From a virus, in the IMG/VR virus record IMGVR_UViG_3300046010_005021, positions 1 to 21,087 of that record: DNA of 21,087 nt. One strand, given 5' to 3'. Of the stretch, positions 3,166 to 15,308 are shown piece after piece. The notes beneath the pieces were generated by a model. It ran no database searches and was not told the origin of the DNA. It was given only the letters and a program-made list of their open reading frames with translations. How positions within the stretch are numbered: the first letter of the stretch is position 1; the number at the start of each line of letters is the position of its first letter. The position numbers and the translations under genes were made by a program.

Positions 3166-4095
3166 TCACTTCTTTAGCTGGCGAAAAACACGGAACGTGC
3201 TGGTGCTAGCCTCGCGCGCCGGGGTCTTGCGGGTCTGGGGCAGATAGCTAAAGCCGTCTCCTTCCTCGAACCGACCGACCTCTGCGTCGCCCATCGCCTC
3301 TAGGATCTTGGCTCGGGCATGACGCTGCATCTCTTCTCCGGCATCGGCCATGGCCTTGCCTTCGTCTAGCATCTCGCCGTACATGCGAAGACTTGCGTCC
3401 AAGGATACTTCCTTGTTCTCGGCCCGCACAACGTCTTTGAGTGCTTCAAGGTCCTTGGCGTACTGTGCCGGGGGCGGCACGCGCTTCACGATGTGGTCGT
3501 TCCAGAAGTTGACCAGCATCGTCGTAGCCCAGTCCTCCCACGCTAAATCGCGGTCGAACTTGTACACGTTGACAGACGGAGGAATCAGCGCGGACACCAT
3601 GCCGTAGTCAGCGTTGGCCATCATCGCGTACAAACGGGCCTGAGTCTGCGGACCAATCGGGCACTCGTCGCCCCACGGGTCGTGAAACACAGGCGCCTTC
3701 AGCTCAATGACTGCTTTTTGCGGTGCCGTCTGTCCTTCTGCGTAGCCTGAGCAGAAAGCGTCAGGCGTGCCTACGATGAAGCTGTACTGGTCATGCACGA
3801 TCATGCGGTTGTTGGCCGCAATCAGGATGTCGGGGTACTTGTCCCCAAGGATTTCCAAGTGCAAGCGCTCGCTCTTGGTGCCCCAGTCAAACAGCTCTTG
3901 CAAGCTGTCGTCTACGTCCTCGGGCACGTCCTTGCCATCAAGCTCGTTCGTGATGCGGATGTACTCGCTGAGCGGAGTGCCGCGCACGCCTCGCATGCTC
4001 GGGTACAAGATGTTTGCAGCGGTGCTGCAGTTGATCTTGCCCTTGCGCGCTACTCGCCAATCAGGCGAGCCGTGAATGATGTCGGTCAGAATCAC
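3166..4095 (-). CDS. YqaJ-family viral exonuclease (lambda Exo-like)
   Basis: The 309-aa product starts at GTG 4095, overlapping the annealing-protein stop by 4 nt (GTGA). It is a PD-(D/E)XK exonuclease that would resect duplex ends 5'-3' to give single strands for annealing. Visible catalytic core: E76 in the helix after WGTKSER, G109-T-P-D112, and E131-L-K133, followed by Q150/Q152 in a PQTQARLY helix. These are the classic YqaJ/lambda Exo signatures. A helical region (about 215-275) and a C-terminal segment (280-309) follow. Translation is coupled to the Rad52-like partner, forming a two-component recombinase module like Red alpha/beta. It probably functions in replication-linked recombination, end repair and genome mosaicism. 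Confidence 0.88.
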   Translation of the reverse strand: MILTDIIHGSPDWRVARKGKINCSTAANILYPSMRGVRGTPLSEYIRITNELDGKDVPEDVDDSLQELFDWGTKSERLHLEILGDKYPDILIAANNRMIVHDQYSFIVGTPDAFCSGYAEGQTAPQKAVIELKAPVFHDPWGDECPIGPQTQARLYAMMANADYGMVSALIPPSVNVYKFDRDLAWEDWATTMLVNFWNDHIVKRVPPPAQYAKDLEALKDVVRAENKEVSLDASLRMYGEMLDEGKAMADAGEEMQRHARAKILEAMGDAEVGRFEEGDGFSYLPQTRKTPAREASTSTFRVFRQLKK

Positions 4096-4961
4096 AGCGC
4101 CCCCTTGCTCTGCAGGTCATGCACCACCATAAGCGCGTACTCTTCCATGGCGCTCGGTTGCTTGCCTTGCTTGAACTGCTCGGCAATCTTGTTACCGAGC
4201 CAACGCAGATAGCCTGAGCCCTCGTTGCTCGCGGCCAGCGCGCGCAGCGTCATGCCCTTGTGCTTGCCAAACGGGAGCGTCTGTGCGTACGCGGTCTCGG
4301 GGCTGTACGCATGCGTGATCGGAACGCCGTTGACCTCAGTCACGCCGACGACCTCGCCGGTCGCTGAATCAAAAGGGACCGTGTCTTCTTCCCCTTCAAA
4401 CTTGCTGACGAGACGGTCCATGAAGCCATCGTCCCCGGACTGAGGCTCCGGAACAGGCTGGGGCTTGGGGGCTAGCGCGCGCTCAATGCGCTGTGCCTTG
4501 ACCGGGGGCGCAGATGCCGCCGTGTTGCGCTCGGTCTTGGACCACAGCTCCAATGCCACGCCAAAGCGCATAGCCGCGTTGCGGAGCGCGTCACCGATCA
4601 ACTGCTTCTCTGCGTCAAAGGCGGTTGACTCCACGCTACCGTAGCCAAGGCGCGTCACCCCGCACACAGTGAGGCGGATCCACAGGCCGATAGGCTTGCC
4701 GCTCTTGTCGCGCTCAAACTCCGGCACGCCCTCGTGCCAGCGGCAGGGCTGCCAGTTCCATTCCGGGTCAATGTCAAGCAGGCGCTCAGTGATGTCGGCG
4801 TGCCCGACGTAGTCGAGCATCGCGCCGCCCTTGGGCTTGCGGCTGATCTTCTCGGGAGGGAACGGTGTACGAAGGGCCTGAAGCTTGGCTTGGCGTTCCA
4901 GTGCAGCGGCCTCGTTCGCGGCCACAGTAGCCTTGTCTTGGTCAAACATTTTGTTGGTCAT
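4092..4961 (-). CDS. Rad52-like single-strand annealing protein with ExoX-like C-terminal domain
   Basis: The 289-aa product starts at ATG 4961 (a second ATG at 4949 is possible). The N-terminal half (about 28-140), with LRTPFPPEKI, the LDYVGHADITERLLDIDPEW segment and a GDALRNAAMRFGVALELW helix, matches the Rad52/22-type annealing fold common in phages. A Pro-rich linker (about 160-190) leads to an acidic segment. The C-terminal domain at about 228-262, LPFGKHKGMTLRAL...GYLRWL, matches the small domain seen at the C-terminus of exodeoxyribonuclease X-like proteins. The protein should anneal complementary strands exposed by the neighbouring exonuclease, while the extra domain may bind DNA or recruit a partner. 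It is the first gene of the leftward operon. Confidence 0.82.
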   Translation of the reverse strand: MTNKMFDQDKATVAANEAAALERQAKLQALRTPFPPEKISRKPKGGAMLDYVGHADITERLLDIDPEWNWQPCRWHEGVPEFERDKSGKPIGLWIRLTVCGVTRLGYGSVESTAFDAEKQLIGDALRNAAMRFGVALELWSKTERNTAASAPPVKAQRIERALAPKPQPVPEPQSGDDGFMDRLVSKFEGEEDTVPFDSATGEVVGVTEVNGVPITHAYSPETAYAQTLPFGKHKGMTLRALAASNEGSGYLRWLGNKIAEQFKQGKQPSAMEEYALMVVHDLQSKGAL

Positions 4962-7282: not shown

Positions 7283-7710
7283 TGATCGCCCCCATGAGAG
7301 GTGAGTTCTACGAAGGCGCAGGCGTCTATCTCAAAGCACGCTTGTCCGGTGGCGACAACAACCTGATTTCGTCGAGCAGCTTTACGTCTGCGGTGTCGAG
7401 CAACATCGCTATTTCTGTGTTTGATAGCACAGATTTGACTGCATACGCTAGCGCAGGCACGAGCGGAACGTCATTGCCCGATACGCTAGTCCCGGTGTAC
7501 TCGGCCAGCGTTGCCTACACCAACATCATCATTCCCTTGACCTTGAACGGGTGGTCAGAGGACTTGATCGGGTACAACTTCACTTACACGTTCACGACCC
7601 AGTATGCGTTCCAAGGCGGCCACTCGTACCGTGTCGAGTTCAAGCTCAATACCATCAATGGCAATGTCTACGCGGTGTTCGAGCTTGCGTGCCGTTCTAC
7701 TGGCAGTTGA
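7282..7710 (+). CDS. small beta-rich virion protein, unknown
   Basis: The 142-aa product starts at ATG 7282, sharing one base with the previous stop (TGATG). An internal ATG at 7294 is a possible alternative. The sequence is Ser/Thr/Tyr-rich with alternating hydrophobic residues, typical of a beta-sandwich, for example YSASVAYTNIIIPLTLNGW. It closes the rightward tail operon. It runs 14 nt into the leftward gene at 7697-8002, and I see no terminator between them, so transcripts would overlap. Confidence 0.7.
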   Translation: MIAPMRGEFYEGAGVYLKARLSGGDNNLISSSSFTSAVSSNIAISVFDSTDLTAYASAGTSGTSLPDTLVPVYSASVAYTNIIIPLTLNGWSEDLIGYNFTYTFTTQYAFQGGHSYRVEFKLNTINGNVYAVFELACRSTGS

Positions 7711-8002
7711 CTGGCTCGACGTAATCAAGTCCACGGCTATGCTTCCATGTCGGCTTGTGCTGTTCATGGTCCCAGCAGTTTACGAGCATGGATGTACTGC
7801 CGTTCTTCATCAGCCTTACGTCGAGAACGCGGCCAGTACACTTCGTCGGCTTGACTCCCGTGTGCCGGGTGTAGGACACGACAACGCCGACCCAGTTGAG
7901 CGTGCTTCGGATGTACGGAAGAACTGACTTGGGGACGTAGACTAGCTGCCCGTTTTCTGGGGCTTGCTCGGACCTAGACTTCCTCGTCTCCTTGTTCGTC
8001 AT
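7697..8002 (-). CDS. 101-aa unknown protein
   Basis: The frame is open to ATG 8092, but the DNA from 8003 upward is better explained by the gene ending at 7974. ATG 8002 is therefore preferred, giving a 29-nt overlap with that gene. The product has a basic N-terminus, then GQLVYVPKSVLPYIRSTLNWVG and a beta-rich section with an RVLDVRLMKNGSTSMLVNCW strand pattern, and ends VEPVNCQ. No family is recognised. The end overlaps the convergent tail gene by 14 nt, and its last codons lie in copy 1 of the CAGTTGACTGGC repeat. Confidence 0.6.
   Translation of the reverse strand: MTNKETRKSRSEQAPENGQLVYVPKSVLPYIRSTLNWVGVVVSYTRHTGVKPTKCTGRVLDVRLMKNGSTSMLVNCWDHEQHKPTWKHSRGLDYVEPVNCQ
7704..7718 (+). repeat. 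15-bp repeat copy 1 (CAGTTGACTGGCTCG)
   Basis: Lies at the convergent stop codons of the 7282-7710 and 7697-8002 genes. On the minus strand it encodes EPVN near the end of the leftward gene. Confidence 0.75.
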
Positions 8003-8681
8003 CCGCAAGGAGTGTTTTTCTGTTCTCGTCTCTTCCGGGTCTGGGGAGATGGGCGTACCAGTGCTGTTCAGGTGGATCGTCTTCGTACTCATGATTTCTA
8101 TCGCAGTTGACTGGCTTGCCGCACGATGCGCAGGTGACTAGCTTACCCGAATCAGATTTTAGGTCAGTTGACTGGCTCGCCCGGGTTGGTTGGTTGGCCG
8201 GACCGGCCGCCTCGCGGCCCGGCGAGGCATCGACCCCTTGGCCCGGCCCCTGACCCCTTGACCCGGTCACCGGTCGGAGCCGGACCCCTTGACCGCGCAA
8301 CCGGGGACCGAACTCGTCACCAGCGGGGCGGCCTTCGCCCCGGACGTAGTCCAGTTCGGCCAGCAGCATCGGCACCCGGCCAGCGTCGCGAAGTACCCCG
8401 GTCGTCGTCAGCGCGTCCACGTCGCGCCGGGCTCGGCCGATGGCCTCGCGGATGGCGTCCCACTCGAGCTGCGCGTCCGCGCGCTCGGCGTTGTCCCCGT
8501 GCCGATAGGACCGCACAAGCCGCTCGCGCTCCGCCAGCGCGAGCGCCTCCAGCGTATCCCGGACGCCTGCCCAGTACGCTGCCGGGATCACCGGCGGCGG
8601 CTTGGGACCGATGCTCAAACGCGCCCAGCGCGCCCAGCGCACTGCGCAGCGTGCCGCGAACCCAAACGCCTTCCCGCGCAT
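7974..8681 (-). CDS. apparent fusion ORF: high-GC helical N-terminus joined to phage-type zinc-finger C-terminus
   Basis: 235 aa from ATG 8681 to TAG. Residues 30-130 are helical and charged, from GPKPPPVIPAAYW to LAELDYVRGEGRPAGDEF. Residues 130-172 are a low-complexity Gly/Gln/Arg linker encoded by the GACCCCTTG repeats. Residues from about 173 on are encoded by lower-GC DNA and contain C184-x2-C187, C193 and H198/H209 in a CASCGKPVNCDRNHE context, a plausible zinc site, then an acidic tail. The composition break falls at the 15-bp repeat at 8165-8179. The frame is continuous, so a real chimera, a gene truncated by insertion, or a readthrough artefact are all possible. No function assigned. 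Confidence 0.55.
   Translation of the reverse strand: MRGKAFGFAARCAVRWARWARLSIGPKPPPVIPAAYWAGVRDTLEALALAERERLVRSYRHGDNAERADAQLEWDAIREAIGRARRDVDALTTTGVLRDAGRVPMLLAELDYVRGEGRPAGDEFGPRLRGQGVRLRPVTGSRGQGPGQGVDASPGREAAGPANQPTRASQSTDLKSDSGKLVTCASCGKPVNCDRNHEYEDDPPEQHWYAHLPRPGRDENRKTLLADDEQGDEEV
8104..8118 (+). repeat. 15-bp repeat copy 2 (one mismatch)
   Basis: CAGTTGACTGGCTTG, in the zinc-finger-coding part of the leftward ORF. It encodes KPVNC in the same frame as copy 1, where it gives EPVNC. Confidence 0.7.
8165..8179 (+). repeat. 15-bp repeat copy 3, at the GC breakpoint
   Basis: Identical to copy 1 and located exactly where low-GC phage-type DNA gives way to the GC-rich block. It is read in a different frame from copies 1 and 2. 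Confidence 0.75.
8232..8291 (+). repeat. three copies of GACCCCTTG
   Basis: Copies at 8232-8240, 8252-8260 and 8283-8291, each followed by G/ACC. They encode the Gln-Gly-rich linker of the 7974-8681 ORF and sit just inside the left edge of the GC-rich block. Confidence 0.7.
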
Positions 8682-8788
8682 GCGTGCAGCCTAGCGGCCC
8701 TCAGCGCGCGCCACAACGCAGCGCGGGCGCCGCAGGCCCGAAGACCCGCGACGCCCGCAGCGTTTCTACCACCGGCCAGCCCGTGCGA

Positions 8789-9196
8789 TCAGGGCGACCA
8801 GTCGAGCCCGGTGACCTCGGTCGGCTTGCCGTCGGGGTCGATGCTGTAAACGCGCGGGGCAGCACCGGCGGCGGGGTAGTTCCGGATGATGGCGACGGCG
8901 ACGGCTTCGGGTAGGTCCACGTGACGGCCTTCTCGGTTGGTCGCCATCAGGAGCGCGTCGCCGTAGATCGGCACCTGCGCGAGCGCAGACGCGCGCGCGT
9001 TACCGGCCGGGTGATCGACAAGGGCGCCCTCGTCGTCGATCCATAGCGCGAAGTGCATGCCCCCGGGCGCGTCATGGACCCGGACCGTATCGCCGTAGGC
9101 AGCACCTACCGCGCGATTCAGCTGCTCGTACCCTGACGCGGTCACTGCGCCCAGCTCGGCGTTGCCGTCCGCCGGGATTCGGATACAGAGCGGCAT
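8789..9196 (-). CDS. DUF3846-like protein
   Basis: The 135-aa product starts at ATG 9196, sharing one base with the preceding stop (TGATG on the minus strand). The frame is open to 9343, but that part is the shadow of the neighbour. The sequence starts MPLCIRIPADG and has VGAAYGDTVRVHD, then ALWIDDEGALVDHPAGNAR, then a PIYGDALLM strand. This layout matches the DUF3846 type of small protein found in phages, plasmids and mobile elements: an N-terminal strand, a LWIDDEG turn, a PxNxxA helix, and a GDxL strand. The family has no established function. It is probably last in the tightly packed AAA+/vWA unit, with 107 nt without a gene before the next ORF. Confidence 0.65.
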   Translation of the reverse strand: MPLCIRIPADGNAELGAVTASGYEQLNRAVGAAYGDTVRVHDAPGGMHFALWIDDEGALVDHPAGNARASALAQVPIYGDALLMATNREGRHVDLPEAVAVAIIRNYPAAGAAPRVYSIDPDGKPTEVTGLDWSP

Positions 9197-9588
9197 CAGT
9201 TCAACCCCTCCCCGGGTCGGCGCGCCGCCGGTGCAATCGCGTCGCCGGTCCATGCGTGCAGGCTGAGGAAGCTGACCATCGCGTGCGCCATCCCGGCGCG
9301 CGCTTGCAGCTCGTCGGCTTCGGTGCCTTCGGTCTGCTCCCACTCAATCCGGGTGTCGAGGATCACGGTCCAAGCTTCGTGAGACGTACACATGGCCAGC
9401 GCCATCCAAAGGTTGACCCCGGTCGGTGACGAACGCACGACGCGGTCGCGCAGCGCGTGCAGCGCTTGGACGTCGGCCTGCGAACATGCATCGACCAGTG
9501 CGCGCGCGACTTCCGGCATCGGCACGCCGTCAACCTTGAGCCCCCAGAACTCTTGCACGCCCTCGTGCAATGTATGCGCCGGGATCAT
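9196..9588 (-). CDS. 130-aa unknown protein
   Basis: ATG 9588 overlaps the stop of the 88-aa gene by 4 nt (ATGA), and its own stop shares a base with the DUF3846-like start. It is mainly helical and mildly acidic, with GVQEFWGLKVDGVPMPEVARALVD near the start and a Trp/Met-rich segment NLWMALAMCTSHEAW in the middle. It ends in a Pro/Arg-rich tail. No family is recognised. Continuous overlaps with both neighbours imply co-expression and perhaps a shared complex. Confidence 0.68.
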   Translation of the reverse strand: MIPAHTLHEGVQEFWGLKVDGVPMPEVARALVDACSQADVQALHALRDRVVRSSPTGVNLWMALAMCTSHEAWTVILDTRIEWEQTEGTEADELQARAGMAHAMVSFLSLHAWTGDAIAPAARRPGEGLN

Positions 9589-9851
9589 GCGTCACCGCCT
9601 TCGGCGTCGCGCTCGGCGCGGTCTGCCGCGCGCATATCGCGGACGAGCCGCTCGAGCAGCTGCGCGGCTTCCGACGCGCGCGCTTGCGCGTTGCGCCACA
9701 TCGTGCGGGTCTCATTCTCCGCAGCCATTGCCGTGCGCTGGCTGCAGACCTCCAGCGCGTGCAGCGCGTGAGTGTGTGCCAACTGCGCTTGCACTTCCGC
9801 AGTGCGCCGGGCCATCGCTTCAGTCTTGTCAAGTTTTCTTGTCATGGTCAT
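9585..9851 (-). CDS. 88-aa helical protein, possible coiled coil
   Basis: Two in-frame ATGs, at 9851 and 9845, open the gene (MTMTRKLD). The rest is almost entirely helix-forming, rich in Ala, Glu, Arg and Gln with heptad-like leucines (HALHALEV, AAQLLERLVRDM). It ends in an acidic Gly tail. The coiled-coil composition resembles the middle region of the vWA protein upstream, which may reflect pairing; that is speculation. It follows the vWA stop after 87 nt of hairpin-rich DNA. Confidence 0.65.
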   Translation of the reverse strand: MTMTRKLDKTEAMARRTAEVQAQLAHTHALHALEVCSQRTAMAAENETRTMWRNAQARASEAAQLLERLVRDMRAADRAERDAEGGDA

Positions 9852-9869
9852 GGTCTCGTTTCGGTTCGC

Positions 9870-9926
9870 GCGGCGTCCCTGAACGCCGCAGGTATTGGGA
9901 CGCGCGCGCGGCGACCTGCCGCGTGC
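9870..9926 (-). other. two consecutive stem-loops between the vWA gene and the 88-aa gene
   Basis: GCGGCGT/ACGCCGC (9870-9876 with 9883-9889, 6-nt loop) and GCGCGCGGC/GCCGCGTGC (9904-9912 with 9918-9926, 5-nt loop, one G-U pair). There is no T run on either side, so they are not a simple terminator. They may set differential expression, by RNA processing or attenuation, between the large and small genes. Confidence 0.5.
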
Positions 9927-9938
9927 GCCGCTCAGGGC

Positions 9939-11642
9939 CTAACCCACTGGCTGACCAGCAGCGTCCATCAGCGCGACGAACTCGGCGCCGGTCAGCGCCT
10001 CGAGCAACCCGCCAGCCGACGTACGCAGCACGACGCGCCAGCCCTCGTCAGCGTCCGGGGCCAGCGCGTTGCTCTCGACGATGATGTACGCACAAGGGCA
10101 AGACGCCTTGCGCAGGAACGACTCGCGGTCGTCCCTGCGCGTCTCGCCGTCGGTGAGGACCACAACGAGCTGCCGCATGCCAACGCGCGCAGTCGATTGC
10201 AGTCGGCCCATGCGCGGCGCTGCGCTGTGCGTCAGGTCCGTGCCGCCGCTCGGCTTGCTCGGCGCGAAATCGCAGTCTAACGGCTGCGACCAGTTCAGCA
10301 CCGGCGGCTGCTCGTCGCTGCAGTTCTCGCCGTTCCATGCGTCCACGGCGGCGTCATGCCCGGCGGCGCGCAGCGCGCGCACAAGCTGCGCGGCTGCGAC
10401 ACCCAGCGACACGGACATTCCACCCGTGCTGCCACTCACGTCCACAAGCAACTGCACGGCTACCGGCTGGCGCCCGGCACGTCGCGTGCAGAGCGGCGTG
10501 CGCAGCGCGCCGACGGCCCAGCCAACGAGCGCGGGAGACGCTACGCGCGCGCCGAACTCATCCACGACGGTGTTGGCGTCGGCATCCACGCGCACGGCCT
10601 CGGCAAAGTCCTGCGCGCCCTGCGAGAGCGGCGAGCGCTCGAGCGCCTGCCACTTCCCGCACGAGTAAGCGCCGGAGTACCCGGCCCCGCCGGTCTTCCG
10701 CTCGTACCGCTCACCAGTCTGCTGCTCGACGGCGTCCAGCAACCGGCCTTCCCGGTACCAGTTCTGCGTTGTCGCGTCCAGCAAGTCACCGAACGACTGG
10801 ACGGCGCTGCCGTGAGTGTCGCCCTTCCGGTTGGCTGCGGCTTGCACCGCGCACCACGCGGTCATCGCAGCGCGGTGCTTCTGCTGCGCCTCGACAGACT
10901 CCAGCGCTGCGGCGTCGGCCTTGGCCATCACCTGAGCCTCCTCGGCGGTCAGCTCGGCAGCCTTCGCGCTTGCGTCCATGCGCTCACGCGCTTCCTGCAG
11001 GCGCTGCTCGGCCTTCACTGCTGCCGTCCGGGCCTCGTTCAGAGCGCGAGTGGCGCGGGACTTCTCGCCCCGGTTGCCGGTGCTGCCGTCGAGCATATCC
11101 CGTTGCGCCTGAGCCCGGGCCAGCTCGCAGCGCTTGGAGTCGTTCCACGCTTGTGCGTTTTGAAGCTCGGCCTCGGCGTGCTGGACCGCCGCCGCGCGAC
11201 GGCGAAGGGCTGACGCCTGGTGGGTTAGCTTCGAGCTTCGGGCGCTCGTCTCCGAACACACCTGGGCCGACTTCGCAACTTCGACGGCGGCATCCACTTC
11301 GCTGCGTTCGATCGCGAACAGCACGAGCCACTCGTCAACGCTCAAACGGTCGAGCACGGCGAGCGGAAGCTTACCGGCTTCAGCGATAACGTGCCGAGCC
11401 CCATGATGCTCACCGGCGGCGAACAGCTTGGCTGCAGCCTTGCCTCCGTAGTTCACCAGAAGGCGCGACGCAGTCAGGGCGGCGACGTTGTCCAGCAAGC
11501 TGGCGCCGTTGTCATTACCGGCGAGTCGCATGACGACGGCCTTGCCAACGCAGCTAGCGTGGTAGTCCCGCATCCGGTTCGGCGCGATGGTCATGCCGCC
11601 GAGCGTGTGCCCTTGGGGCGCGGTCAGGGTGAAGGCGCTCAC
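9939..11642 (-). CDS. vWA-domain protein with intact metal-binding site and central coiled coil (CobT/CoxE-like partner)
   Basis: The 567-aa product overlaps the AAA+ gene by 4 nt (ATGA at 11639-11642). The N-terminal ~110 residues are of unknown fold. Residues about 115-280 form a long Ala/Glu/Arg/Gln coiled coil. A middle section with GYSGAYSCGKW follows. The C-terminal vWA domain begins near 395 with LLVDVSGSTGG. The metal-ion-dependent adhesion site is complete: D401-x-S403-x-S405, T468 in SGGTDL, and D498 in VVVLTDGET. vWA proteins encoded next to MoxR/CobS ATPases usually hand substrates to the ATPase for metal insertion, complex assembly or remodelling. No CobT signature or cobalamin gene is seen, so a cobalt chelatase role is not supported. 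Confidence 0.82.
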   Translation of the reverse strand: MSAFTLTAPQGHTLGGMTIAPNRMRDYHASCVGKAVVMRLAGNDNGASLLDNVAALTASRLLVNYGGKAAAKLFAAGEHHGARHVIAEAGKLPLAVLDRLSVDEWLVLFAIERSEVDAAVEVAKSAQVCSETSARSSKLTHQASALRRRAAAVQHAEAELQNAQAWNDSKRCELARAQAQRDMLDGSTGNRGEKSRATRALNEARTAAVKAEQRLQEARERMDASAKAAELTAEEAQVMAKADAAALESVEAQQKHRAAMTAWCAVQAAANRKGDTHGSAVQSFGDLLDATTQNWYREGRLLDAVEQQTGERYERKTGGAGYSGAYSCGKWQALERSPLSQGAQDFAEAVRVDADANTVVDEFGARVASPALVGWAVGALRTPLCTRRAGRQPVAVQLLVDVSGSTGGMSVSLGVAAAQLVRALRAAGHDAAVDAWNGENCSDEQPPVLNWSQPLDCDFAPSKPSGGTDLTHSAAPRMGRLQSTARVGMRQLVVVLTDGETRRDDRESFLRKASCPCAYIIVESNALAPDADEGWRVVLRTSAGGLLEALTGAEFVALMDAAGQPVG

Positions 11643-12664
11643 AGCGTCACCCCCGTCGCCTTCAGCGCGGCGAAGCGCTCACGAACTTGGTCAGCCGCCT
11701 TCACCGGCAAGGCGTCGATGAGCGCGAGCCCCCAAGCTTGCTCCGGCTGCAGCCCGGCCTTGAGCGCCGCGAGCACGCGCAGGCCCATGCGCGGTGACGG
11801 CGGCACGTCGTGCGCGCCGCACTTGAACAATGCGCGGGCCTCGACCAAGTGAGCAAGCGCCCACCGGCTGCTCTTCTCGTCGTAGCCGTGAGCGGCGTAC
11901 AGCTTGACTTCCACGTCCTCCGGCAAGTAGTCCGCTGCGATGAACAGCGCGCGGCCCTTCAGCGCGGTGCTGATGGTCTGCACCGAGTAGTTGCCGCCAC
12001 TATCCCGGCGCAGCCCGTTGCACGTCAGCACGACGCGGAAAGCGGGGTGCGCCACTAGCTGCTCGCCCGACAACAGGCGCGCGCTTGCGTCCCGGTCGAG
12101 CACCGAGTGCAACGCACCGACGACGCTGGCGTGGACTAAGTCGAACTCATCCAGAATGAGCGTGCCGCCGTCGCGCATGGCGCGAGCCACTGCGCCCTCC
12201 ACAAACGCGAGGCGCCCGGCTTCCGTGCCGGTCCACGGCCGGTCAAGCAAGTCCTCCCGGGTTGTGGCAGCGCTACACTCCACGGTGTACACGGGACGCC
12301 CGCGACGCGCTGCAGCATGGCGCGCGGCGAACGTCTTCGAGCTGCCAGACGGGCCGCTCATAATGACGCAGCGCGTGCCGTCCACGTCCATCACCTTCAG
12401 CGCGGCGTCGAGCGCGTCGCACGTCGGCGTGCGGGTGTACTTGTCGCTTGCGCCCAGCGCGTCAGGGCGGGCGTGAGGTAGCACGTTGTCAAGAGCCCGG
12501 CGCGCGTCGGCGGTCAGGTCCTCGATCACGGCGCGGACCTCCGCGCGCACTGCGTCGCGATCGAGCGCCGGGGCGGTGGCTTCTGCCGCCATCAGCGCTG
12601 CCAGTTGTTCAACGGCGTGCAAGGCGGTCGCCCGGCGGACTTGGGAAGGGTTCACGTTGGTCAT
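11639..12664 (-). CDS. AAA+ ATPase, MoxR/CobS-like
   Basis: The 341-aa product starts at ATG 12664; an in-frame TTG two codons upstream is a weaker alternative. A helical N-terminal region (about 1-75) precedes the ATPase core. Walker A is G104-P-S-G-S-S-K110-T111, Walker B is LILDEFD (D172, E173), sensor 1 is N216 in VVLTCNG, and a PRMGLRVL segment (about 291-298) fits sensor 2. The REDLLDR segment after the first strand pair is typical of the MoxR/CobS clade. It would form a ring that remodels a client protein selected by the vWA partner encoded directly downstream. It is the first gene of the leftward unit. Confidence 0.85.
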   Translation of the reverse strand: MTNVNPSQVRRATALHAVEQLAALMAAEATAPALDRDAVRAEVRAVIEDLTADARRALDNVLPHARPDALGASDKYTRTPTCDALDAALKVMDVDGTRCVIMSGPSGSSKTFAARHAAARRGRPVYTVECSAATTREDLLDRPWTGTEAGRLAFVEGAVARAMRDGGTLILDEFDLVHASVVGALHSVLDRDASARLLSGEQLVAHPAFRVVLTCNGLRRDSGGNYSVQTISTALKGRALFIAADYLPEDVEVKLYAAHGYDEKSSRWALAHLVEARALFKCGAHDVPPSPRMGLRVLAALKAGLQPEQAWGLALIDALPVKAADQVRERFAALKATGVTL

Positions 12665-12670
12665 GGTCAA

Positions 12671-13180
12671 TGCTCTCGGTCATCCCGGCGCGGACCGGCC
12701 AACGCACCAACGCGGCGCGCTCGAACGGTCAACAATCCGGGTGCCATCTTCTACACCGTCCATCGTCACAATGCAATCGCGGCTTGCCAACAATCCCGGG
12801 AACGTCGTGCCGTCGTTGTAGGTCCGTCCCGGGCGCCGGGCCCCGGGCGGGACGCGGAGCGCTGCGCACGTCGCTGCACGCGCCGGGGTTGTGACGGGTT
12901 GGGCGAGTCTGGTTGGGCCGCCGGTCACGGGTCGCCGGTTGGGCCGGTTGGATCGTTCCCAGCCCGTCCACGGGCCGGGCCGGTCGGCCTTGGCTGCCGC
13001 CGTCCACGGTGCCCGGGGTGCCGTGCTCGAGGGGTGCGCGACGCGGGGCGCGAGGGGTGCGCATGGTGCGCATGATGCGCGCGGGGAGCGCGGGTGCCGA
13101 CCCCCACCCCCGACCCCCAGCGCGGGGGACCCAACGGGGGGCCGATATTATTTTACTCCCACTCACATCCACGGAAAGGG
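12671..13180. other. gene-poor GC-rich divergent region
   Basis: About 510 bp between the AAA+ gene and terS; open frames here look like GC-rich shadows. It contains a GC-only hairpin, GTCCCG/CGGGAC (12826-12831 with 12848-12853). GAGGGGTGCGC occurs as a direct repeat near 13029 and 13052, followed by GTGCGCATG-type repeats. CCCCC and GGGGG runs (13100-13143) stop at an ATATTATTTT tract. It may hold the leftward promoter, a packaging or origin site, or a degraded edge of the island. Nothing settles which. Confidence 0.5.
12748..12776 (-). promoter_or_regulatory. weak promoter candidate for the AAA+/vWA unit
   Basis: On the minus strand, TTGCAT (12776-12771), 17 bp, then TAGAAG (12753-12748), about 85 bp before the ATPase ATG. 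Only a partial match to sigma70 boxes, but it is the best pair I found in the region. Confidence 0.25.
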
Positions 13181-13185
13181 CGGTC

Positions 13186-13202
13186 TATGCTACCGTAGTC
13201 CA
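13186..13202 (+). promoter_or_regulatory. terS promoter element with copy 4 of shared motif
   Basis: TATGCT (13186-13191) is a good -10 box. It runs into CTACCGTAGTCCA (13190-13202), the fourth copy of the shared motif, which ends 1 nt before the ATG at 13204. I see no convincing -35. The leader would be at most about 6 nt. Confidence 0.45.
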
Positions 13203-13203
13203 C

Positions 13204-13764
13204 ATGCCGAGGAAGCTGAACCTTACGGACGTTGCAGAGACGGTATCAAAGTTCAAGCCTAAGAAGCCTAAACAGAAGCCCGAGTCGTCACCGGAGAGCC
13301 GGTTGGTTTCTAGGGCCAAGAAGGAGCTAGAGAAGCCTAGCAGTGAGCCCGTGAGCTTTAAGCTGTCCACGCTCCGCGAGCTGGTGATGAAGGAGCTTGA
13401 GGCTAACGAGGGACTGAATGCAAAGGCAGTAGCTAGGACCCTAGTAGAGAAGGCTATCGAGGGAGATGCCTATTGCATGAGACTGCTGATGGAACGTGTA
13501 GATGGCCTGTTGCCGAAGTCGGTGAGTGTCAATGGCCAGATCGCTGTCGGTCAGGTAGTGACGCTAGTGGATACTAGGTCTTTGAATGTAGACATGCCTG
13601 CATTTGTCCGTGATGTACAGTCAGTAACGACTGTAAGAGGGGAAGGGGTATCCCCTTCCCCGCTCCTATCGTCGCCCCCCATCCCCGTAGAACCGATTGT
13701 TACAGTAAAGGCTGTAGCTTTAGAAGCAGCTGTAGAGGTTCTTGGAAACGAATTACCTGCCTGA
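13204..13764 (+). CDS. terminase small subunit-like protein
   Basis: The 186-aa product starts at ATG 13204. The frame stays open upstream to 12913, but that part is GC-rich non-coding sequence. A Lys/Pro-rich N-terminus (1-45) leads to a helical domain at about 50-105. Its KAIEGDAYCMRLLMERVDGLLPK pattern recurs in small-terminase or DUF5681-type proteins encoded directly before terL. The C-terminal third is Val/Pro-rich and contains the codons of a strong hairpin (13639-13661). It would bind the packaging site and recruit TerL. No Shine-Dalgarno is visible. The assignment rests on this motif and on position, 68 nt before terL. Confidence 0.65.
   Translation: MPRKLNLTDVAETVSKFKPKKPKQKPESSPESRLVSRAKKELEKPSSEPVSFKLSTLRELVMKELEANEGLNAKAVARTLVEKAIEGDAYCMRLLMERVDGLLPKSVSVNGQIAVGQVVTLVDTRSLNVDMPAFVRDVQSVTTVRGEGVSPSPLLSSPPIPVEPIVTVKAVALEAAVEVLGNELPA
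13639..13661 (+). repeat. 10-bp perfect inverted repeat with 3-nt loop inside terS
   Basis: GGGGAAGGGG, TAT, CCCCTTCCCC, encoding residues about 145-153 (RGEGVSPSP). No T run follows. The exact symmetry inside a coding region, close to the terS-terL junction, suggests a DNA or RNA signal such as a packaging recognition site or mRNA control element. Confidence 0.65.
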
Positions 13765-13832
13765 ATAGCAACTAGAGAGAGTGCCCTCATCCCCCTTCCC
13801 CCTTCTCCCAAAGCATATCATCACCAGCAAGC

Positions 13833-15308
13833 GTGTCAAGTAACAACAGTGTAAAACCTAATCAACAGGTAGAGGTACGGGGGGCGCCAGCAACTCTATG
13901 GGACATGGTACAGAAGCCGGGCGTGGAGAGGTCCCGGGAAGTAGTGATTGCGGGCCCGGGCGGTACTGGCAAGAGCCGGGGGATTGGTCACTTCCTCTGG
14001 TGGGTGATGAACACCTACCCTTGGGTACGAATCCTTGTGGTCCGGAAGACGAGGGTGTCTTTGTCGGAAAGCTTCCTGAAGACATGGGAGCAGGACGTGA
14101 TCCCGGAGGGGAGTCAGATTCTGGAGGGCCCGCTACGCGCGCACCGGCAGAGCTACAAGCTGGAAGTGAACGGGGCCGAGATGGCCGTGGGTGGCTTGGA
14201 CAACCCGACTCGTCTCTACTCTACTGACTGGGACATCATCTACGTCCAAGAGTGTACGGAGCTAACGGAGGACGAGTGGGAGCGCCTGCGACGGGGTCTG
14301 CGTAACTGGAAGATGCCGATCCAGATGCTACTGGGTGACTGCAACCCCGAGAGCAACCGGCACTGGCTGTACCGCCGGTTCTTGGATAAGAGGACCGAGA
14401 GACTGGACTCCCGGCACCAAGACAACCCGAAATGGTTCAGTACCAAGATCAAGGACTGGACTCCCGAGGGCCTCGCGTACCTGCAGAACCTGTCTAGGCT
14501 GACCGGTGTCCGTAAGCGGAGACTCCTGTTCGGGGAATGGGTGTCGGCAGAGGGCGCTGTGTGGGAAGAGTGGGACGACACCCGGCACATCATCCAGAGG
14601 CCTCCCGGTGACGTGATGGCGGCACTGGGTATCCGGTGGGTATTTGGGTCTATGGACTGGGGCTATACGGCGGCTGGCGTGCTGCAGGTGTGGGCCGTGG
14701 ACCAAGAGAACCGGATGTACCTCCTGAAGGAGATCTACCGGACAGGCCAGCAACTAGAGTGGTGGGCAGACCGTGTCGTGAAGGTATGGCTAGAGTACAA
14801 GCTACAGGCAATCGTCGCTGACCCGTCTAGACCTGACGCGATCAAGCTTGTGAATGACCGGCTGAACGATGCCGGAGCGCCCCGGCTCGTGCGCGCGGCG
14901 AACAACCGGAGGACCACCATCGGTGGAGACCTAGGCGGACTAGACATGGTCAGGCAAAAACTCCGCGTGCAACCGGACGGGTCGTGCGGTCTGTATATGC
15001 TTGCGGACGCTCTGGACACGAGAGATGCCGAGCTACACGAAAAAGGCTTGCCGTGCAGCACGTCTGAGGAGATTCCTAGCTATGTTTACGTCAGCGTGGG
15101 CGAAGGAAAGCTAGATACCGAGCGCACGGACCCTGATTGCGCTGACCACGGTTGCGATGCTATGCGGTACGCAGTGACGTTCGTGTGGAGGCGTGACCTA
15201 TCACCGGAAAAGGATCACTCGCGCAAGCAAGTGTTGACTTGGGGACAGGTTTTAGGGCATGATGAAGTCTGGGAAGAATCTGGCGGTCGCCCAAAGCACC
15301 TGAAATAG
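13833..15308 (+). CDS. terL: terminase large subunit (packaging ATPase/nuclease)
   Basis: The 491-aa product starts at GTG 13833. No Shine-Dalgarno is seen and ATG 13902 is a later alternative, but residues before it fit the family length. The ATPase domain has Walker A G41-P-G-G-T-G-K47-S48 and Walker B IIYVQE (E140), powering DNA translocation into the prohead. The RNase H-like nuclease domain has D275 in SMDWGYT, D330 in IVADPS, and D438/D442 in DHGCDAMRY, the expected acidic set for cutting concatemers. It docks on the portal encoded 3 nt downstream. Confidence 0.92.
   Translation: MSSNNSVKPNQQVEVRGAPATLWDMVQKPGVERSREVVIAGPGGTGKSRGIGHFLWWVMNTYPWVRILVVRKTRVSLSESFLKTWEQDVIPEGSQILEGPLRAHRQSYKLEVNGAEMAVGGLDNPTRLYSTDWDIIYVQECTELTEDEWERLRRGLRNWKMPIQMLLGDCNPESNRHWLYRRFLDKRTERLDSRHQDNPKWFSTKIKDWTPEGLAYLQNLSRLTGVRKRRLLFGEWVSAEGAVWEEWDDTRHIIQRPPGDVMAALGIRWVFGSMDWGYTAAGVLQVWAVDQENRMYLLKEIYRTGQQLEWWADRVVKVWLEYKLQAIVADPSRPDAIKLVNDRLNDAGAPRLVRAANNRRTTIGGDLGGLDMVRQKLRVQPDGSCGLYMLADALDTRDAELHEKGLPCSTSEEIPSYVYVSVGEGKLDTERTDPDCADHGCDAMRYAVTFVWRRDLSPEKDHSRKQVLTWGQVLGHDEVWEESGGRPKHLK

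Follow-up and report, generated by a model that had tools for sequence, protein, structure and literature searches.

Pairs of an AAA+ gene and a vWA gene are widespread in tailed viruses, where they usually carry the label 'porphyrin biosynthesis' or 'CobS/CobT'. Described examples include the viral cobST clusters (PMC8651126), the AAA/vWA pair of the halovirus Hardycor1 (PMC7911831), the MoxR-vWA pairs with a metallopeptidase domain of jumbo phages (PMC7824862), and gp71-gp72 of the Gordonia phage Hanem. A viral MoxR AAA+ protein (p618) with a vWA partner (p892) is also known from Acidianus two-tailed virus (ATV; PMC4124505), an archaeal spindle virus with extracellular tail development. For NorQD, a mechanism has been published (PMC9976466), and MoxR-vWA ternary conflict systems (VMAP, iSTAND, FtsH, beta-propeller) are defined by a third conserved core component (PMC7159879). 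In the literature cited here, no client is established for the AAA+/vWA pair of any tailed phage.

The window (the whole stretch of 21,087 nucleotides analysed) carries such a pair on the minus strand, consisting of a putative motor gene for an AAA+ ATPase of the MoxR/NorQ/CbbQ/CobS class (343 aa, 11639..12670) and a gene for a vWA protein (567 aa, 9939..11642), which overlap by 4 nt, as already reported in the first-pass annotation. The AAA+ protein matches Pfam AAA_5 (1.9e-20) and phrog_249 (8e-27), and its best single-domain solved relatives in the profile search are NorQ (1.4e-21), CobS (9e-17) and CbbQ (1.6e-14). The P-loop lysine, the Walker B DE and the sensor residues that define the MoxR class are all present. 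The earlier description of the Walker motifs as intact is nearly, not exactly, right, because Walker B (LILDEFDL) and sensor-1 (CNG) are intact, whereas in Walker A (GPSGSSKT) a serine replaces the glycine of the sixth position. The closest relative has the same replacement, and the other relatives possess GPAGTGKT or GPSGSGKT; the serine could reduce the ATPase activity.

The vWA protein consists of a helical/coiled-coil N-terminal region (about 100-300) and a C-terminal vWA domain with the MIDAS (about 394-560). This metal site is complete, as first noted (D401-x-S403-x-S405, T468, D498), and its residues are invariant in five relatives. No vWA match was obtained in Pfam, PHROG or NCBIfam, nor any detectable match among 50,697 phage records, and no named phage was matched; the profile search found NorD as top match (0.0017). 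Concerning the predicted folds, the best PDB match is a chain of NorQ-NorD complexes for the AAA+ protein (1e-13; CbbQ 1.5e-12) and NorD of the NorQD complex for the vWA protein (1.3e-4). Since the structure models are moderate (mean pLDDT 62 and 50, respectively), these matches are interpreted for the AAA+ and vWA domains only. Together, the AAA_5 match, the fold and profile matches to NorQ/NorD and the complete MIDAS bear out the assignment as a MoxR-type remodelling pair.

A CobST-type metabolic helper, in which the pair together with host CobN would constitute a cobaltochelatase and raise cobalamin, has been hypothesized for viral cobST (PMC8651126). The AAA+ protein belongs to the phage 'porphyrin biosynthesis'/CobS group, and that of a sibling matches 531 phage records, many of them called CobS. 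Such a function is nevertheless very unlikely here: the AAA+ protein reaches 36.2 bits against the CobS model (cutoff 558.55) and matches NorQ better than CobS, no CobT model of Pfam or NCBIfam matches the partner, and neither CobN nor a ribonucleotide reductase is present in five related records, including a 42-kb contig. The initial opinion that a metabolic chelatase role is not supported is thus strengthened. A crude scan for MIDAS genes beside distant CobS-like viral genes yielded few partners, a figure that is unreliable because true pairs were missed. Two further candidates were rejected, namely the gas vesicle protein GvpN (47 bits, equivalog cutoff 266.8) and a NorQ/NorD pair of a nitric oxide reductase operon, the neighbours being phage replication and structural genes.

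The pair is situated in a block with a GC content of about 0.66-0.74, compared with 0.53-0.62 outside. Maximum likelihood places the change points at 8174 and 13145, essentially at the first-pass coordinates (8175 and 13145), and every plausible gene within the block lies on the minus strand, in agreement with that annotation. The excess reflects Ala-rich proteins plus about 0.10 of extra GC3. An assembly join at the edges is disfavoured: the IMG/VR contig 3300044910_000535 (possibly of the same sample series) shares 13,777 bp with the window at 0 mismatches, spans both GC edges and terminates elsewhere, and the gene order of the relatives is the same as that of the window, so that, as far as testable, the block is no assembly artefact.

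The left edge is situated inside p235 (7974..8681, minus strand), a gene shared with relatives, whose N-terminal part has a GC content of 0.74 and whose C-terminal part one of 0.53, with a 13-bp repeat adjoining the step. The encoded protein is 27-32% identical to the products of syntenic genes (GC 0.55-0.56) in two relatives, and the GC-rich part lies within the alignment. The right edge (13145) falls in a GC-rich intergenic region (12671..13203), flanked by the divergent genes for the AAA+ protein and the small terminase, at an element shared with the closest relative; over positions 13101-13141, the identity to the corresponding stretch of L003 is 78%. A hairpin at this edge was predicted no better than in shuffled sequences, no RNA family was matched, and a scan for promoters and terminators gave no excess over shuffles. 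On the plus strand follow the terminase genes (13204..15308; TerS 13204-13764, TerL 13833-15308), which were used for placing the relatives.

The group is known from five genomes only. Four phage contigs with 74-90% terminase identity extend sufficiently upstream for scoring, and each of them carries the AAA+/vWA pair at the same site, such that no empty site was found among them. TerL, AAA+ and vWA yield one and the same tree, in which the AAA+ and vWA proteins of the window group with those of L003, as TerL does. The codon usage of the block is the phage's own (RSCU r=0.947 with the rest of the phage; single core genes 0.76-0.95) and gives no sign of foreign origin. Judged from the sequences, the pair is therefore most likely a vertically inherited core module of this uncultivated tailed-phage lineage and not a recent pick-up.

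The first-pass annotation had considered the block an acquired accessory cassette. The GC steps are indeed abrupt, and the orientation of the pair differs between lineages; however, the synteny in the relatives, the congruent trees, the codon usage and the position of both edges within inherited sequence lead us to reject a foreign cassette, accessory or conflict-related, as most improbable and already largely refuted. A search for hosts with TerL and AAA+ in 84,980 genomes gave no match, so no relative appeared in the bacterial genomes searched. A defence function as a MoxR-vWA ternary conflict system was likewise rejected: the remaining proteins of the block measure 88-135 aa (with p235 at the edge), none of them is a third core component of such systems, and defence models gave weak matches only, those of PADLOC being trivial. 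Two observations had been named in advance as speaking against acquisition, a core position of the block in relatives and a GC content there like that of the rest; the former was found in every scorable relative, whereas in most of them the GC content is still highest in the block. A GC island with sharp edges in a phage genome is thus not necessarily foreign DNA.

A different origin, compatible with any function, would be that the lineage obtained the block by homologous exchange from a relative within this phage group whose GC content is higher, the breakpoints lying in p235 and upstream of TerS. The 13-bp repeat next to the step in p235 would fit such an event, as would the GC content of the window's block, which equals or exceeds that of the relatives' also elevated blocks. 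With the AAA+ and vWA proteins sharing the partner of TerL (L003), and no donor found, we consider this exchange rather unlikely.

The pair occurs in either orientation and with varying small neighbours, and is therefore not tied to one transcription unit. In the window, these neighbours (all minus strand) are open reading frames for a lineage-specific 88-aa protein rich in predicted-helix residues and lacking a convincing family match (9585..9851), for a 130-aa protein known from this virus only (9196..9588), for which the viral scan returned the identical contig alone, and for a 135-aa protein (8789..9196) matching Pfam DUF3846 (30 bits, cutoff 27.5). The DUF3846 identity and p235 at the left edge had not been mentioned in the first description. 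Homology among the small partners of different sub-lineages was undetected, except within the set G006/G008/G004; as they are not conserved between sub-lineages, the 88-, 130- and 135-aa proteins, which the first-pass annotation had suggested as possible clients or adaptors, are probably not indispensable to the machine.

The two components of the pair evolve at different rates. Between G006 and G008, dN amounts to 0.06 for TerL, 0.14 for the part of AAA+ compared and 0.61 for vWA, with dS near saturation, such that relaxed constraint and positive selection are indistinguishable for vWA. The divergence of the vWA protein is concentrated in its N-terminal half (15-38% identity, vWA domain 50-76%). 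With the motor conserved and the arm diverging fast, the client probably varies from host to host. The fibre-side genes evolve similarly fast (25-32% identity), and the fast evolution of vWA would also fit a tail-fibre client.

It is possible, if somewhat doubtful, that the same machine is a virion-assembly chaperone that folds or assembles tail-fibre or other virion proteins. Such a role has been proposed for the jumbo-phage pairs (PMC7824862), p618 of ATV binds p892 as well as virion proteins (PMC4124505), a weak fold match connects ATV ORF892 with the vWA protein, and in the long relatives the pair is situated between fibre-side genes and terminase/head genes. On the other hand, its transcription in the window lineage points away from the head genes, and the adaptor changes much faster than the conserved virion and packaging proteins, such as TerL (74-92% identity) and the major capsid protein MCP (75%), so that only a variable client such as the fibre would fit.

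We favour a remodelling machine of the MoxR type that belongs to the phage core and has an adaptor arm that evolves fast, the client of the machine most likely being a host complex, a proposal that we hold with about even confidence. By analogy with NorQD, the AAA+ protein would form a hexameric ring, onto which, and onto its pore, the vWA domain would dock; the N-terminal helical arm of the vWA protein would grip the client, and ATP hydrolysis by the AAA+ protein would remodel it. The most likely client, a host complex, would thereby be altered for takeover or counter-defence. Confidence is high for the gene pair, motifs, fold class, synteny, congruent trees and rate difference; for the host target taken alone, the chances appear roughly balanced. 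A more far-reaching and rather improbable proposal is that this compact (about 42 kb) phage lineage combines a required AAA+ motor and a fast-evolving vWA recognition arm into a retargetable host-remodelling machine. The arm would then change along with the phage's hosts, and the pair would be a phage counterpart of the MoxR-vWA machines of conflict systems.

The pair appears most similar to NorQ/NorD, which provides the best structural match for both predicted proteins and likewise has an AAA+ gene adjacent to a MIDAS-vWA gene; however, the pair described here belongs to a phage genome without nitric oxide reductase context, the N-terminal region of its vWA protein differs, and identity is low (20-24%). 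The rubisco activase CbbQ/CbbO resembles it in the AAA+ fold and profile, whereas a rubisco context and a CbbO match of the vWA partner are absent here. As in the viral cobST clusters and in Hardycor1, a tailed virus has an AAA+ gene linked to a gene for a vWA protein with MIDAS, and the AAA+ protein matches the CobS-type phage PHROG, whereas the vWA protein is unmatched among the 50,697 phage records, and family models do not identify it as CobT. With the jumbo phages and Hanem the locus shares the adjacent AAA+ and MIDAS-vWA genes; Hanem gp72, however, has HELCH and L014 a zincin-like ORF, whereas HExxH is absent from the five vWA proteins of the group. ATV p618/p892 equally combines a viral MoxR AAA+ protein with a vWA partner, differing in the type of virus and in the weakness of the fold match. 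Phages with AAA+/vWA pairs are thus already known, and the pair found here is a variant without CobT or HExxH features; because it is present in every scorable genome and joins a slow motor to a fast arm, this lineage is well suited to the question of which client such pairs bind.

Within the window, a 21,087-bp fragment of an IMG/VR virus, maximum-likelihood change points in GC content lie at 8174 and 13145, with a GC of about 0.70 between them vs. 0.53-0.62 outside, and all genes listed for this block are leftward, as the first-pass annotation had described: the AAA+ gene (11639-12670, 343 aa), the vWA gene (9939-11642, 567 aa), which overlaps the former by 4 nt, and genes of 88, 130 and 135 aa, the last encoding a DUF3846 protein (barely above the Pfam cutoff). 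Absent from that annotation's gene list was p235 (7974-8681, leftward), within which the left GC edge falls; two relatives have syntenic genes, with a GC of 0.55-0.56, to which its GC-rich N-terminal part can be aligned, and the right edge adjoins an intergenic stretch with 78% identity to the related phage contig L003. The rise in GC is chiefly one of amino-acid composition (Ala 18% vs. 9.5%), GC3 being higher by 0.10, and the related contig G008 exhibits the same pattern. A twin IMG/VR contig (3300044910_000535, 23.5 kb) has 13,777 bp in common with the window at 0 mismatches, covers both GC edges and ends elsewhere; since it is possibly from the same sample series, its support for the assembly is not independent.

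An exact repeat, CAGTTGACTGGCT, occurs three times in the window (7704-7716, 8104-8116, 8165-8177; 0.01 expected), its copies flanking p131 and the last one ending at the left GC edge. In G008 (L093), a 10-bp core, CAGTTGACTG, is present three times, clustered at 3645, 3659 and 3678 immediately upstream of the p235 homologue. These copies may be binding sites for a regulator, or they may serve recombination.

Six related contigs were found via the terminase and a seventh via an AAA+ profile. In all four with enough upstream sequence to be scored (identity of the terminase large subunit, TerL, to the window: G002/L003, 90%; G004/L005, 77%; G008/L012, 42.3 kb, 75%; G006/L007, 74%), the gene for the terminase small subunit is preceded by AAA+ and vWA, and none lacks the pair; its other flank in the two long relatives is p131/p235 and the fibre side. 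The pair is leftward in the window and L003, and rightward in the other three. TerL, AAA+ and vWA trees share the topology ((window,G002),G004,(G006,G008)), an agreement among five taxa only, which chance would produce with odds of 1 in 15. In synonymous codon usage, the block and the remaining window correlate at r 0.947 (AAA+ 0.933, vWA 0.943; single core genes 0.76-0.95), and scans of 84,980 cellular genomes with TerL and AAA+ yielded no relative. Because of this synteny, the concordant trees, the phage-like codon usage, the GC composition, the position of the edges in shared sequence and the lack of a cellular relative, the earlier proposal of an acquired cassette is not supported; the unusually GC-rich version in the window's lineage may have arisen in place, or a relative within the group that is richer still in GC may have supplied it by exchange.

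Where the window has its 88-, 130- and 135-aa genes, the GC-rich module of G006 and G008 contains a DUF7447-like gene (slightly under the Pfam cutoff) and a small conserved protein (L007 2918-3370, L093 7582-8133). G008 (L093-L095, 42,295 bp), with dnaB at one end and yqaJ at the other, seems to be an almost complete genome that is circularly permuted; it has a 3,423-aa ORF, matched in place by one of 2,925 aa in the twin contig. In the window, a YqaJ-type nuclease gene overlaps a gene that matches Rad52/22 very weakly (3166-4961; conserved in relatives), likely an exonuclease and annealing protein pair, and a small CxxCxxCC protein (2687-2968; zinc- or iron-chelating domain, Pfam 5.8e-8) lies beside dnaB. 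The nearest named relatives of the window's TerL (13833-15308), Streptomyces phage Dagobah and Thermobifida phage P1312, are 34-36% identical, so the group has no cultured close member in the searched collection. TerL is split into two overlapping pieces in L008 (1688-3111) and contains one TAG in L006 (271-1737), by frameshift, recoding or sequencing error.

The AAA+ protein matches Pfam AAA_5 (1.9e-20). In the window and its closest relative, the sixth residue of its Walker A, GPSGSSKT, is Ser, where every other relative whose gene is complete has Gly; the Walker motifs had been called intact, which does not hold for this position. The complete vWA metal site stands, every MIDAS residue being invariant across five relatives. 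Compared with single-domain solved proteins, an AAA+ profile of four relatives scores NorQ at 1.4e-21, CobS at 9e-17 and CbbQ at 1.6e-14, and the best PDB matches of the predicted fold are NorQ-NorD complex structures. The vWA gene matches no vWA family among Pfam, PHROG and NCBIfam models; NorD nevertheless ranks first in a profile search (0.0017) and is, within the NorQD complex, the best PDB match of the predicted fold (1.3e-4). Profiles and predicted folds thus agree in matching the two proteins to both halves of one solved complex.

The AAA+ protein belongs to phrog_249, labelled porphyrin biosynthesis, and viral cobST genes have been hypothesised to help a cobaltochelatase (PMC8651126); the window's pair, however, falls short of the CobS model and gives no CobT hit, and neither CobN nor ribonucleotide reductase was found in the relatives, in line with the annotators' doubt about a metabolic chelatase. 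A conflict-type MoxR-vWA system would need a third core component (PMC7159879), which is absent here, and PADLOC returned only trivial matches on the window.

Published work on NorQD (PMC9976466) describes a NorQ hexamer whose pore is plugged by the NorD vWA domain; the target is activated only if that domain is intact and ATP is hydrolysed. The overlapping genes, intact MIDAS and predicted helical N-terminal vWA region fit this scheme; AAA+ would be the motor, and the N-terminal arm of the vWA protein would grip the client. Between G006 and G008, dN is 0.06 for TerL, 0.14 for AAA+ (over just its C-terminal 198 codons) and 0.61 for vWA; with dS (about 0.8-1.4) near saturation, positive selection is not claimed. 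Identity is 15-38% in the N-terminal half of the vWA protein and 50-76% in its vWA domain. A conserved motor paired with a fast-evolving arm suggests that the client varies with the host, being either a host complex or a tail fibre; the variation of the small neighbouring genes and the free orientation favour the former, but only weakly. Service in assembly of the phage particle has the best published precedent among the alternatives, namely p618/p892 of Acidianus two-tailed virus (PMC4124505), and has been proposed for jumbo phages (PMC7824862).

AAA+/vWA pairs of tailed viruses are already known (PMC8651126, PMC7824862). Distinctive in the window's lineage is the vWA protein: it has no match among 50,697 named phage records, is not CobT, and lacks HExxH, in contrast to gp72, the vWA gene product of Gordonia phage Hanem, in which that motif is present.
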